Shown one piece after another: positions 19,794-63,741 of a stretch of DNA of 64,000 nucleotides; within the stretch, counting starts at the first letter, position 1; each line of letters opens with the position of its first letter. The position numbers and the translations under genes were made by a program. The notes beneath the pieces are model-generated. The model had not been told where the DNA came from, did no database searches, and worked only from the letters and a program-made list of their open reading frames with translations. This DNA comes from Tianweitania aestuarii (GTDB lineage Bacteria; Pseudomonadota; Alphaproteobacteria; Rhizobiales; Rhizobiaceae). The DNA is taken from contig NZ_JAFMNX010000003.1 in the NCBI RefSeq assembly GCF_018457165.1, forward strand, positions 186,001-250,000. Reading direction: 5' to 3'.

Positions 19794-19807
19794 TTGATCC
19801 AGATCAA
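19794..19807. promoter_or_regulatory. FNR/FixK anaerobox 1
   Basis: TTGATCCAGATCAA is a perfect match to the FNR/FixK consensus TTGAT-N4-ATCAA. It lies 56 bp upstream of the 72-residue membrane protein gene that is coupled to the FNR-type regulator, suggesting oxygen control and possible auto- or cross-regulation of that regulator. Confidence 0.9.
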
Positions 19808-19863: not shown

Positions 19864-20082
19864 ATGACAACGAACACGCGTATCGCCTTGATTATCTACG
19901 GCCTGGTCAATGCCGTGGTGTTTGGAACGGGTGCGATCATCATCCTGTCCGTTGCATCGCTGCAGGAACACTGGCCGATCCTGCTGCCCGTCATCGTTGT
20001 GGTGAGCCTGGTTGTGGCTTGGCCGATCGCCCAGGCGATCGCGCCGAGGCTGCGTTCGCGCTATGGAAGGCGCGGGCGGTGA
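19864..20082 (+). CDS. Small two-helix membrane protein coupled to FNR-type regulator
   Basis: This 72-residue protein has two predicted membrane helices (IALIIYGLVNAVVFGTGAIIIL and ILLPVIVVVSLVVAWPIAQAI) and a basic C-terminus (RLRSRYGRRGR). I do not recognise a named family. A perfect anaerobox precedes it, and its TGA overlaps the GTG start of the regulator (GTGA at 20079-20082), so both proteins come from one oxygen-regulated message. A role in the same response, for example at the membrane with the cbb3 oxidase, is inference from position only. Confidence 0.75.
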   Translation: MTTNTRIALIIYGLVNAVVFGTGAIIILSVASLQEHWPILLPVIVVVSLVVAWPIAQAIAPRLRSRYGRRGR

Positions 20083-20837
20083 AACAGCCTGACCCGGAAG
20101 ATGCCGCCGTTGCCGGCACGTCGTCCCTTTGCCCCACCTGCGTGGAATGGCGCTGCGGCGTGGGCAGCCTGCTCACACCCGATGAAGCGCGCCAGATCGC
20201 GGCCGTTTCGGTTCGCAGACAGGTGCCTGCCGGAACCGAACTGATGGCGACGCCGAACCTGCGCGACAGCTGCATTGCGCTGCTGCGCGGCGTGGTGAAG
20301 GTCTCGCGCCTCCTGACGGATGGCCGCCAGCAGATCGTGTCCCTGAAATCCGCGCCCGATCTTCTCGGCGCGCCGTTTGCACCGCCCGGCGAGGTTTCGG
20401 TGCGCGCCGTGACCGAAGCCGACATCTACTGCGTGCCGCGCCATGCTTTCGAAGCCGTGGTTCGGCAGAACCGCGGGCTCGAACATCGTTTGCATCTGCG
20501 TGCGCTGGAGGATCTCAGCGAAGCGGAAGCCCTTTTGCTGACGCTTGGCCGCAAAACGGCGCGCGAACGCCTCGCGACCTTTCTGCTCGACATGGCCGGG
20601 CGTTTCCGTCCTGCGGAAATCGGCAAGCGCTGTGACACGCTGGATCCCGCTTACGATCACGACACGCTCGACCTGCCGCTGACCCGCGCCGAAATCGGCG
20701 ATTTCCTGGGCCTGACCTTCGAAACCGTCAGCCGCCAGTTCGCCGCCCTGCGCCGCGACGGTTTGATCGACTTTTCCGATGCACGTCGCGTGTCGGTCAA
20801 GGACAGGAAGCGGCTGCGAAGCGCTGCCGGCACCTGA
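20079..20837 (+). CDS. Crp/Fnr-family oxygen-responsive regulator with shortened Cys cluster
   Basis: This 252-residue FNR-type activator has an N-terminal cysteine cluster CPTCVEWRC (Cys 18, 21, 26), a cyclic-nucleotide-like sensor barrel, the fourth cysteine in DIYCVP (118), a dimer helix, and HTH recognition helix FETVSRQF with the E-x2-SR pattern that reads TTGAT. Cysteine spacing is C-X2-C-X4-C, shorter than C-X2-C-X7-C of the other FNR protein here (35343-36065). The start is GTG at 20079, with GGAAGG eight bases upstream and a 4-base overlap with the small membrane gene; the upstream extension would run through that gene. It sits between two anaeroboxes and just ahead of ccoN, so it probably controls the oxidase operon. 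Confidence 0.9.
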   Translation: MKQPDPEDAAVAGTSSLCPTCVEWRCGVGSLLTPDEARQIAAVSVRRQVPAGTELMATPNLRDSCIALLRGVVKVSRLLTDGRQQIVSLKSAPDLLGAPFAPPGEVSVRAVTEADIYCVPRHAFEAVVRQNRGLEHRLHLRALEDLSEAEALLLTLGRKTARERLATFLLDMAGRFRPAEIGKRCDTLDPAYDHDTLDLPLTRAEIGDFLGLTFETVSRQFAALRRDGLIDFSDARRVSVKDRKRLRSAAGT

Positions 20838-20861: not shown

Positions 20862-20875
20862 TTGATCCAGATCAA
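20862..20875. promoter_or_regulatory. FNR/FixK anaerobox 2 (ccoN promoter)
   Basis: TTGATCCAGATCAA lies 55 bp upstream of the ccoN start, a position usual for class II FNR/FixK activation (centred near -41.5 of the inferred start site). The core equals boxes 1 and 3. Confidence 0.93.
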
Positions 20876-20930: not shown

Positions 20931-22553
<1,623 letters not shown>

Positions 22554-24521: not shown

Positions 24522-24535
24522 TTGATCCAGATCAA
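24522..24535. promoter_or_regulatory. FNR/FixK anaerobox 3 (ccoG promoter)
   Basis: TTGATCCAGATCAA lies 34 bp upstream of the ccoG ATG, giving the assembly operon its own oxygen-regulated promoter, as known for fixGHIS in rhizobia. Confidence 0.92.
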
Positions 24536-29999: not shown

Positions 30000-30013
30000 T
30001 TGATCTGGATCAA
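30000..30013. promoter_or_regulatory. FNR/FixK anaerobox 4 (pseudoazurin promoter)
   Basis: TTGATCTGGATCAA is the exact reverse complement of boxes 1-3. It lies 57 bp upstream of the pseudoazurin ATG on the minus strand and 140 bp from the divergent iron transporter start, so it mainly fits the pseudoazurin promoter. Confidence 0.9.
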
Positions 30014-34744: not shown

Positions 34745-34758
34745 CTGATCCAGATCAA
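34745..34758. promoter_or_regulatory. Degenerate FNR/FixK anaerobox 5
   Basis: CTGATCCAGATCAA differs from boxes 1-3 in the first base only. It lies 100 bp upstream of the hemerythrin gene and is the only regulatory motif seen there. Confidence 0.7.
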
Positions 34759-34858
34759 AGTGCAGCCTTCGCCCGAGCGATAGATCTCCCATCATGAAGA
34801 TCCTGCCGCCGCACCGTCCAGAACGCCACTCATTCAACGCTCCGGGGAGGAGTTCGTG

Positions 34859-35338
34859 ATGCCCAGCCCTTCGCTTCAGCTTGCTTTATCCAGTCTTGGC
34901 ACCAGCCATGACGACATGCTGCAACTTTGCAACCAGCTCGAAACGATCGCCGACAGTCTGCCGTCGAATGTGGATCGACAACACTGCCTTCATGTCGCGC
35001 GTGCCGTGTGCCGCACGGTTGTCGACGCCCATCGCCTGGAAGAAGCCGTGCTGTTTCCGGCGCTCGAACCCTTGTCCGCCACGCTGAAAACCATGCCGGC
35101 GACTTTGGAGCGGCTGCGCTACGAGCATTACGAGGATCTATGCTTTGCCGAAGAGGTGGCCGACACGCTGCTTGGACTGGGCAAGGGTGAAAACCGCCTG
35201 TCGAGCGATGCCGCCGGCTATATGCTGCGCGGCTTCTTTGAAAGCGTGCGGCGGCACATCGCCTTCGAGCGCGAACTGCTGACGCCGCTCCTCCAAATGT
35301 CCTGGAGCACGGCACCGGAACCGCGCGCCGTCGCCTGA
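34859..35338 (+). CDS. Hemerythrin HHE-domain protein
   Basis: This 159-residue four-helix protein has the di-iron pattern: His 17 (SHDDM), His 58-x3-Glu 62 (DAHRLEE), His 90 (YEHYED) and His 133-x3-Glu 137 (RRHIAFERE). Hemerythrin domains bind O2 or NO or help iron homeostasis. The ATG at 34859 has GGGGAGGAG upstream; a GTG directly before it could also serve. The degenerate anaerobox and the neighbouring fnrN suggest a part in low-oxygen or NO physiology. It is convergent with fnrN, 4 bp apart. Confidence 0.88.
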   Translation: MPSPSLQLALSSLGTSHDDMLQLCNQLETIADSLPSNVDRQHCLHVARAVCRTVVDAHRLEEAVLFPALEPLSATLKTMPATLERLRYEHYEDLCFAEEVADTLLGLGKGENRLSSDAAGYMLRGFFESVRRHIAFERELLTPLLQMSWSTAPEPRAVA

Positions 35339-35342
35339 GCGA

Positions 35343-36065
35343 TCAGCCGCAGCGGTTCTTCAAGCGCGCCATGTCGATTACATCGACATGGCGGTTGCCA
35401 GTAATGGCGATCACCTTGTCGGCCCGCAGTTTGGAAAGCTGGCGCGACACGGTTTCCAGCGTCAGTCCGAGAAAATCGGCAATGTCGCCGCGGGTCAGCG
35501 GAAGATCGAAATGGCGGACCGCTTCGCCTTCGTGGCTCGGATCGAGATGCGTGGCGATCAGGTAAAGAAAGCTCGCGACCTTTTCCGCCGCCGTTTTGCG
35601 GCCAAGCGTTACCATCCAGTCGCGCGCTTCATCGAGCTCACGAAGGGTCTGCTGCATCAAGCGATGTTCGAGCGCAGGATTGTCCGCCATCAGGCGCTCA
35701 AGTGCGGTGCGCGGAACGCGGCACAGATCGACATCGGACGCTGCTTCGGCCGTGACCGCGCTTTCCTTCGTATAAAGACGGCCGAGGAAATCGGGTGCAA
35801 ACTGCAGGCCGACGATCTGCTGGCGTCCGTCTTCCAGCGTCTTGGTCAGCTTCACCACGCCACGCATGACATTGGCGTAGGACTCGATCGGCTGGGCTTC
35901 GGCCGCGAGTTCCGCTCCCGCATCATGCTTCACCATGCGCGTGATCTTCGACAAGGCCATGAGCTCGTCGGGCTGCAGAACGCCACACATTCCCTTGTGC
36001 CGCGCTTCGCAGCTTTGACACAGCACCGGTACATCCGAGTTGTGGATGTCTTTTCGATCCGTCAT
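35343..36065 (-). CDS. fnrN: FnrN-type oxygen-sensing transcriptional regulator
   Basis: This 240-residue FNR-family regulator should hold a 4Fe-4S cluster through Cys 16, 19, 27 (CQSCEARHKGMC, the C-X2-C-X7-C of rhizobial FnrN) and Cys 115 (DVDLCRVP). The HTH recognition helix LETVSRQLSKL carries the E-x2-SR pattern that reads TTGAT. It should activate anaeroboxes at low oxygen. The ATG at 36065 has GGAAAG upstream; an in-frame ATG at 36107 is possible. Anaerobox 6 lies between it and hemN, consistent with FnrN autoregulation known in Rhizobium. Confidence 0.94.
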   Translation of the reverse strand: MTDRKDIHNSDVPVLCQSCEARHKGMCGVLQPDELMALSKITRMVKHDAGAELAAEAQPIESYANVMRGVVKLTKTLEDGRQQIVGLQFAPDFLGRLYTKESAVTAEAASDVDLCRVPRTALERLMADNPALEHRLMQQTLRELDEARDWMVTLGRKTAAEKVASFLYLIATHLDPSHEGEAVRHFDLPLTRGDIADFLGLTLETVSRQLSKLRADKVIAITGNRHVDVIDMARLKNRCG

Positions 36066-36161: not shown

Positions 36162-36175
36162 TTGATCGAGATCAA
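36162..36175. promoter_or_regulatory. FNR/FixK anaerobox 6 (fnrN/hemN intergenic)
   Basis: TTGATCGAGATCAA matches TTGAT-N4-ATCAA with a different centre (CGAG). It lies 96 bp from the fnrN start and 85 bp from the hemN start, so it could serve both divergent promoters. Confidence 0.9.
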
Positions 36176-63009: not shown

Positions 63010-63741
63010 TCAGCGCGCCCGCTTGTTGAGGTTGAGATAGGCGTCTTCGAACTGCGCAAGCTCGCGTAAGCCGTCCCAATCCTTGATGCTGACGGTCGAT
63101 CCGACCCAGCTCACCATGCCCGTTGCGCGCAGATCCTGCAGGGTGCGGTTCACATGCACCACGGAAAGGCCAAGCATATCCGCGAGATCGATCTGCGTGA
63201 TCGCCAGGCGGTAGCTGTAATCCTTGGCAAGCCCGACGATATCGAGCCGGATATACATTTCGCACAGGAAGTGGGCCATGTGGCTGAGCGGAGACATGCG
63301 CCCGAGCGCAACGATCCAGGCGCGGTGCATGGCGGCATCGATCGTGGTGGCCAGCCACAGCAGGCGTCCGAGATGCGGCAGACGCTCGGTCACGCGCCGC
63401 ACTTCGGGATGGGCCGTCAGCGCCACACGGCAATCGGTCAGCGCCGTGACGTCGTGATCCATCTGGTCGAGCAGCAGAGAATGCAGATCAACATAATCGC
63501 CCGGAACATGCAGGGCGCTGATCATGCGCTTTCCGTCGGCTAGATAATGCGCACGTGCCGCCAGACCTTCGAGAACGAGGATGCTGGAAGTCGGCCGGTC
63601 GCCTTGCCGGATCATCGCCGTGCCTGCGGCATAATCCTGGCTGTTGAGCGTCAGCGCGTCGAGGGCAGCAATTTCGTCGGTGGACAGGTCATCCCGCCGC
63701 GACAAAAACATCACCAGGGGATTGGTCACGGGGAGACTCAC
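63010..63741 (-). CDS. Crp/Fnr-family regulator without Fe-S cysteines
   Basis: The 243-residue protein has a Crp-type sensor barrel (TAMIRQGDRPTSSILVLEGLAARAHYLADGKRMISALHVPGDYVDLHSLLL), a dimer helix, and an HTH (ITQIDLADMLGLSVVHVNRTLQDLRATGMV). N-terminal cysteines are absent and the recognition helix has VVHVNRTL in place of E-x2-SR, so it will not read anaeroboxes. This branch is common in Rhizobiales with unknown ligand. The start is GTG at 63741; no ribosome-binding site is clear. Confidence 0.9.
   Translation of the reverse strand: MSLPVTNPLVMFLSRRDDLSTDEIAALDALTLNSQDYAAGTAMIRQGDRPTSSILVLEGLAARAHYLADGKRMISALHVPGDYVDLHSLLLDQMDHDVTALTDCRVALTAHPEVRRVTERLPHLGRLLWLATTIDAAMHRAWIVALGRMSPLSHMAHFLCEMYIRLDIVGLAKDYSYRLAITQIDLADMLGLSVVHVNRTLQDLRATGMVSWVGSTVSIKDWDGLRELAQFEDAYLNLNKRAR

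Follow-up and report, generated by a model that had tools for sequence, protein, structure and literature searches.

The window, by which we mean the whole stretch of DNA that was analysed, comprises 64,000 nucleotides (G000:C3:186001-250000) of a 3.83 Mb genome from the Tianweitania group of the Phyllobacteriaceae, order Hyphomicrobiales. The genus Tianweitania is included in the Mesorhizobium complex in the available text of PMC11057113. The gene of interest, referred to here as fnrX, lies between a small ORF and ccoN, and the window also has a canonical fnrN on the opposite strand. The relevant features are as follows:

19794-19807 (+): perfect FNR box, TTGATCCAGATCAA, centre about 63 bp 5' of the small ORF ATG (pattern search)
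19864-20082 (+): small ORF for a hydrophobic 72-aa product, with two membrane spans as judged by eye (ORF)
20079-20837 (+): fnrX, FNR-type regulator with displaced cysteines, 252 aa (ORF, GTG start)
20130-20156 (+): C-X2-C-X4-C, formed by Cys18 (20130), Cys21 (20139) and Cys26 (20154) (sequence)
20163-20165 (+): Gly29 codon, GGC, on the column that is Cys in X7 proteins (alignment)
20427-20432 (+): Tyr117-Cys118, with Tyr on the canonical fourth-Cys column and Cys one residue on (alignment)
20715-20747 (+): recognition helix region TFETVSRQFAA, with Glu215, Ser218 and Arg219 (sequence; PF00325 at residues 199-230)
20862-20875 (+): perfect FNR box, centre about 62 bp 5' of the ccoN ATG (pattern search)
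20931-22553 (+): ccoN, which opens the cbb3 oxidase operon and is probably what the boxes control (translation; synteny conserved in L045, L046, L075 and L076)
24522-24535 (+): perfect FNR box 5' of ccoG (pattern search)
35343-36065 (-): canonical FnrN, C-X2-C-X7-C, Cys at column 117, divergent from hemN (sequence, alignment)
36162-36175 (+): perfect FNR box between fnrN and hemN (pattern search)

The TGA of the small ORF and the GTG start of fnrX overlap as GTGA, and this overlap is kept in all three Tianweitania-group genomes (the window, T. populi and T. sediminis). Its presence in the two other species supports the GTG start of fnrX, and the arrangement suggests that the small ORF and fnrX are translationally coupled. 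The small ORF had no match in Pfam or NCBIfam, or among the plasmid records, and its homologs were identified in 11 of 56 related genomes, three of these being the genus itself. At four other small-ORF loci (L268-L271) an FNR gene was not found by eye. On the 3' side of fnrX the genes identified by eye were ccoN, ccoO, ccoQ, ccoP, ccoG, ccoH and ccoI.

With up to one mismatch allowed, the window contains eight matches to the FNR box pattern TTGATNNNNATCAA, five of them perfect, versus a mean of 1.28 in 100 shuffles, none of which reached eight. FNR-type activation occurs from about -41.5, and the spacings of the boxes ahead of the small ORF-fnrX unit and of ccoN would fit this. Using a looser pattern, boxes were also located 5' of the unit in T. 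populi (L034:9714), T. sediminis (L035:9665) and g126 (L076:8277), whose counterpart of the unit is described below, and boxes 5' of both the unit and ccoN recur in all four (looser pattern outside the window). From the boxes we infer, as the simplest circuit, that FnrN would activate fnrX under low oxygen and that both regulators would act at the cco promoter.

FNR boxes also stand near other genes of the window, which were named by eye. A perfect box at 30000-30013 is flanked by a pseudoazurin-like gene (-) and by a gene for the binding protein of an iron ABC transporter (+, 30154). A gene for a hemerythrin-like HHE protein (34856-35338, +) adjoins fnrN, and an FNR box with one mismatch is found there at 34745-34758.

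The first-pass annotation had regarded the product of fnrX as a true FNR-type paralog that kept the TTGAT-reading helix. Both points are upheld: the protein has CRP/FNR domain matches and a place in the trees among cysteine-bearing FNRs, and its helix reads TFETVSRQF, with E..SR, and is invariant in three orthologs. The Glu, Ser and Arg of the recognition helix are the residues named for TTGAT half-sites in the accessible part of PMC7713065. The domain matches were PF00027 (33.5 bits, cut-off 27.5), PF13545 (65.3, cut-off 27) and PF00325 (48, cut-off 21). Against the FnrL equivalog NF045989 (cut-off 300 bits) FnrX scored 142.8, and the canonical FnrN of the window, at 223.7, also fell below the cut-off. 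This FnrN is the second FNR protein that had been described as C-X2-C-X7-C, correctly so, as the minus strand at about 35343-36065 reads CQSCEARHKGMC. The genome (G000) has 16 PF13545 and 3 PF00325 matches among its CRP/FNR-type genes, and a search with the FnrX protein (E 1e-10) matched just two proteins in it, FnrX and FnrN, which are also the only cysteine-bearing FNRs read in that genome. A third CRP/FNR-type regulator in the window (63010-63741, -) is without the N-terminal cysteine motif.

An AlphaFold model of FnrX (9 sequences, mean pLDDT 78.6) has the CRP/FNR fold, with the cysteine loop poorly modelled (pLDDT block means of 52 for residues 11-20 and 67 for residues 21-30). In VIA-align comparisons, the holo-FNR of A. 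fischeri (5e44; Z 22.2, rmsd 2.9, 218 residues, 22% identity) was tied with other CRP/FNR chains, among them the holo-L28H variant 8qto (Z 22.1), and these tied top rows show the common fold only. By sequence, the best PDB match of FnrX was FixK2 (E 9.2e-24).

Positions of the third and fourth cysteines

To place the cysteines of FnrX we used a census of 224 distinct FNR-like rows, mostly best-match loci and not a random sample, from which eight rows without an assignable motif were set aside and kept outside the column counts. The remaining 216 proteins comprised 195 with C-X2-C-X7-C (third Cys eight residues after the second, or +8), 18 with C-X2-C-X5-C (+6) and three with C-X2-C-X4-C (+5). 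The +5 type consisted of the window protein and its orthologs in T. populi and T. sediminis, and was seen in none of the 213 others. One of the eight rows set aside, L025 (genome G036), is FnrN-like by eye, with the third cluster Cys replaced by Arg (CRSCEARHRGIRSAL) and the fourth Cys present; the Arg could be either a sequence error or a cluster loss. Another FNR, L102 (genome G805), has an extra Cys within the loop (CESCHARCHSVC), giving candidate ligands at +4 and +8.

Translation of 20079-20837 bears out the earlier reading of Cys18, Cys21 and Cys26 as C-X2-C-X4-C. The accompanying description of the cluster as compressed or tighter does not stand, as the length from Cys21 to the PDE anchor is unchanged and the third Cys simply occupies +5, not +8, in an ungapped alignment. 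In the three orthologs the loop reads C-P-[ST]-C-V-E-W-x-C-G-[VL]-G-[SG]-L-L-T. The commonest residues of the X7 proteins after the second Cys are Gly at +6 (104/195), Val at +7 (108/195), Cys at +8 (195/195), Leu at +11 (170/195), Pro at +13 (88/195), Asp at +14 (69/195) and Glu at +15 (88/195), and the window FnrX has Cys at +5, Gly at +6, Val at +7, Gly at +8, Leu at +11, Pro at +13, Asp at +14 and Glu at +15. Aligned without gaps, the window FnrX carries the commonest X7 residue (n=195) at columns 27, 28, 32, 34, 35 and 36, and the second commonest at column 33. This agreement supports the ungapped alignment, which MAFFT likewise produced, and with it a third Cys at +5 instead of +8. A deletion as the source of the short spacing was considered and rejected, as the MAFFT alignment was ungapped and a gapped version needs two compensating 3-residue indels.

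The column of the third ligand (29) is Gly in all three FnrX orthologs. The column that the third Cys has moved to (26, or +5) is Leu in 18/18 X5 proteins and corresponds to Leu28 of E. coli FNR, beside the ligand Cys29 (Leu28 by count along C23-S24-I25-S26-Q27-L28-C29, with ligand numbers from the available text of PMC4214427 and the residue string as in L233). At +5 and +8 the g126 protein has Arg (CGG) and Cys (TGC) and the window fnrX has TGC and GGC, so that few base changes would be enough for the relocation. The loop also appears to tolerate relocation, because the third Cys varies in position (+8, n=195; +6, n=18; +5, n=3) at equal loop length. Column 24 counts against our best reading of FnrX, set out in the last section: it is Arg in 189/195 X7 proteins and Trp in the window protein.

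The fourth cysteine gave a different result from that of the first-pass annotation, in which Cys118 was taken to be kept. Across the ungapped alignment of the 216 proteins, the fourth Cys lies at column 117 in 213/213 other FNRs (195/195 X7 and 18/18 X5), and the window protein has Tyr117 followed by Cys118. Since the X7 and X5 rows were picked by their N-terminal motif, this column-117 count is the only one that does not depend on how they were picked by motif. The T. populi protein is also Tyr117-Cys118, and that of T. sediminis (L035/L046) has both Cys117 and Cys118 (CC). Such a CC pair is also found at 117-118 in 16/195 X7 FNRs. The CC state is therefore fairly widespread, and a protein that first gained Cys118 could easily go on to lose Cys117; the T. 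sediminis pair is a possible intermediate. Judged on the alignment, two of the four presumed ligands are displaced together, from column 29 to 26 and from column 117 to 118, so the change may go deeper than a threshold shift.

FnrX was compared with the marks of the usual classes. Alphaproteobacterial FnrN has its third Cys at +8, and in FnrX it is at +5 in 3/3; the fourth Cys, at the column of E. coli Cys122 in FnrN, is at that column in T. sediminis alone of the three; and FixK has no N-terminal cluster cysteines, whereas Cys18, Cys21 and Cys26 are invariant in 3/3. The first-pass version, an ordinary FNR site with shorter spacing to the third Cys and the usual fourth Cys, had the residue numbers 18, 21, 26 and 118 right, but with both sites ungapped, and column 117 being C in all 213 others and Tyr in the window and T. 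populi, we regard it as barely credible.

The Tyr on the canonical fourth-ligand column in two of the three FnrX proteins also counts against our best reading. In the available text of PMC4214427, the ligands of E. coli FNR are Cys20, 23, 29 and 122, and the C122A variant had anaerobic activity near the vector control and did not acquire its cluster to any significant extent in vivo; reconstitution in vitro did yield one, with unusual spectra. In our model residues 114-120 are a predicted strand, and because columns 117 and 118 are adjacent in it, Cys118 may face away from the cluster.

Ancestry and constraint of fnrX

The first-pass annotation had proposed a phylogeny as a means of distinguishing a clade feature from random variation in spacing. 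The trees, made with motif columns excluded, place FnrX inside the Hyphomicrobiales FnrN group and recover one X4 clade, with SH-aLRT support of 99 in the 91-row tree and 100/98 in the 44-row tree, so that the spacing is a clade feature, so far of three proteins from one genus. The sister of this clade was the g126 FNR (93 in the 91-row tree, 100/94 in the 44-row tree), and the whole is nested in the X7 group of the order. The next branches out were L255, the other FnrN of g126, and L072 of G576; the g126 proteins L047 and L255 have long branches. A recent duplication of the genus's own FnrN was tried as the origin of fnrX. Constraining the tree accordingly costs 27.3 log-likelihood units (p-AU 0.048), a borderline rejection, for a grouping of FnrX with its own FnrN that was chosen for the test after the first tree had been seen.

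The g126 unit consists of a small-ORF homolog (61.6% identical), the FNR gene and then ccoN (86% identical over the 450 residues compared), and its FNR is identical over 248 residues in genomes G127 and G198. This FNR, 46% identical to FnrX, shares with it the unit small ORF-fnr-ccoN, Cys65 and, at column 24, an aromatic side chain, and is unlike it in retaining C-X2-C-X7-C (Cys29) and Cys117. By pairwise score the g126 protein is not nearer to FnrX (E 1.3e-56 to the window protein versus 8.5e-57 and 1.9e-56 to the FnrN of two other genera), and the case for a sister relation therefore draws additionally on the common gene unit, on Cys65 and on the aromatic residue of column 24. If the tree is correct, the retention of Cys29 and Cys117 in g126 makes the displaced set of the Tianweitania group the derived one.

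Close FnrX orthologs outside the three genus genomes were found in none of four overlapping samples searched at strict E limits: relatives (61 genomes, E 1e-10), family (394, E 1e-46), order (397, E 1e-50) and class (385, E 1e-49). A distant protein with X4 spacing could be missed at such limits because they are strict. A further X4 search applied two tight peptide patterns to genome contigs (11 loci), and there too the three genus genomes were the sole source of close orthologs. Among 149 plasmid records the best listed identity to FnrX was 42.9%, scored by identity with motif spacing aside. We read fnrX as a diverged paralog within the FnrN clade, and its position suggests a role at the cbb3 oxidase operon.

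The two orthologs are 80% and 65% identical to the window FnrX, and Cys18, 21, 26, 65, 118 and 185 are invariant in the three, with no invariant column before Cys18. The dN/dS values of fnrX, computed with a Nei-Gojobori script on the sequence from the first motif Cys onwards, were 0.135, 0.181 and 0.182, versus 0.072, 0.086 and 0.063 for fnrN in the matching species pairs; all are rough because dS is high (0.66-1.47). The reading frame of fnrX is intact, values of 0.135-0.182 indicate that it is under purifying selection, and the gene evolves faster than, and is less constrained than, fnrN.

These data bear on the main rival explanation, namely that FnrX has lost its cluster and is a FixK-like, oxygen-insensitive activator set by transcription, through FnrN at the FNR box, its cysteines being a thiol switch or nothing. 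We consider this unlikely, yet several observations lend themselves to it. The fourth-ligand column is Tyr in two of three proteins and the third-ligand column Gly in all three, FixK2 is the best PDB sequence match, dN/dS of fnrX is about twice that of fnrN and dN two to three times, and FixK and FixKf are cluster-loss cases within the order in the available text of PMC4999443. The cysteines speak against it. FixK proteins are without N-terminal cysteines, as far as the accessible parts of PMC7713065 and PMC4999443 go, but C18, C21, C26 and C118 of FnrX are invariant in 3/3, and conservation extends through CP[ST]CVEWxCG[VL]G but not to the residues ahead of this segment.

The additional invariant cysteine, Cys65, is also present in the g126 protein; the alignment of Cys185 with g126 falls in a variable stretch and was given no weight. 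Cys65 favors a second rival, which we hold to be improbable, whereby the displaced cysteines hold either a cluster whose fourth ligand is not a cysteine or a different metal, for example zinc, and FnrX senses NO, redox or metal rather than oxygen. The cluster of B. subtilis Fnr is reportedly held by three cysteines, going by the title of a study of that protein, which also counts for this possibility. Against it, both the neighbours read (the cco operon and hemN) and the boxes are those expected of an ordinary FNR.

Proposed mechanism and significance

In the mechanism that we propose, FnrN would switch on the small ORF-fnrX unit at low oxygen, and FnrX would then assemble an Fe-S cluster on Cys18, Cys21, Cys26 and Cys118 with a changed geometry. 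That geometry may lower the oxygen reactivity of FnrX or shift it towards NO, and FnrX would as a result sustain ccoNOQP expression across a broader span of oxygen levels than FnrN could by itself. Our best reading, on which our confidence is evenly divided, is that FnrX is an FnrN-clade paralog, probably FnrN-induced and acting at the same boxes, with a rewired putative Fe-S site that is probably less oxygen-reactive.

The boxes 5' of its own unit and of ccoN would also suit a protein with a miscoordinated cluster that binds them and activates poorly, and that dampens its own promoter and those of cco by competing with FnrN. The title of a 2002 study by Scott and Green on E. coli is said to be that miscoordinated clusters permit simple repression and not activation, which counts for such a damper. 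However, the DGRQQ loop, the one activating contact compared, is retained at the same place as in FnrN, and we think this role highly improbable.

The proposed change in reactivity draws on precedents among better-known FNR proteins. The FnrP of P. denitrificans, an X7 protein (Cys14, 17, 25 and 113), reacts with oxygen at 29 versus 180-200 per M per s for E. coli FNR, and its slower reaction is linked by the authors, at least partly, to residues beside the ligands (PMC4771820, available text). Pseudomonas putida has three FNR paralogs of differing oxygen sensitivity (PMC4505428), and the L28H variant of FNR is oxygen-tolerant and NO-sensitive (PMC12343034), each according to the accessible portion of the paper. 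By analogy with FnrP, P. putida and L28H, a Cys at the Leu28 column together with a moved fourth Cys could therefore change oxygen reactivity, and an altered Fe-S stability or oxygen threshold of the putative FnrX cluster is plausible. With somewhat less confidence, we suggest that the [4Fe-4S] ligand set of an FNR has been rewired at two of its four positions, perhaps via a CC state, with a cysteine now at the Leu28 position that bears on oxygen resistance, to give a second-tier regulator that is active at higher oxygen or prefers NO and is wired to the cbb3 oxidase.

Comparison with known systems helps to define what is distinctive in FnrX. It shares with the alphaproteobacterial FnrN/FnrL/FnrP proteins (C-X2-C-X7-C) the fold, the reading helix, the FNR boxes and the cco/hemN neighbourhood, and is unlike them in having Cys at +5 and not +8, the fourth Cys shifted by +1, Trp for the conserved Arg, the small hydrophobic ORF and a site 5' of ccoN. 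The FNRs of E. coli and Aliivibrio fischeri (C-X2-C-X5-C; 5e44) have the same overall fold, but the third Cys of FnrX is one residue earlier than theirs, at the Leu28 column, and the fourth one later. With rhizobial FixK and FixKf it has in common the box type, the targets and an FNR-derived origin, although the FixK types are without the N-terminal cysteines that FnrX has. ANR, PP_3233 and PP_3287 of P. putida resemble FnrX and FnrN in being several FNR paralogs in one cell, theirs being cluster-bearing with oxygen sensitivities that differ; unlike FnrX, all three have the four canonical cysteines and vary in near-cluster residues (PMC4505428, available text). An altered position of the third Cys is itself a known theme, as the accessible part of PMC7713065 describes a two-residue displacement in alphaproteobacteria and an altered spacing in AadR. 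In the open-access literature, key subscription papers aside, the text available to us described no FNR with X4 spacing or a displaced fourth cysteine. If the present reading is true, FnrX would be, to the extent of the literature searched, the first FNR reported to have its fourth ligand relocated.

The finding touches on how freely the ligands of sensory Fe-S clusters move in evolution and on how an oxygen threshold is set. To our knowledge, ligand movement in such clusters in relation to oxygen threshold has been studied mainly in engineered E. coli FNR variants. The loci described here offer a natural series, with the same gene unit at the same operon, that runs from g126 (C29, C117) through T. 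sediminis (C26, C117 and C118) to the window and T. populi (C26 and C118 only), and makes ligand migration in an oxygen sensor directly testable with environmental bacteria. Within the Tianweitania group itself, the response of FnrX to oxygen or nitric oxide may differ from that of the nearby canonical FnrN.
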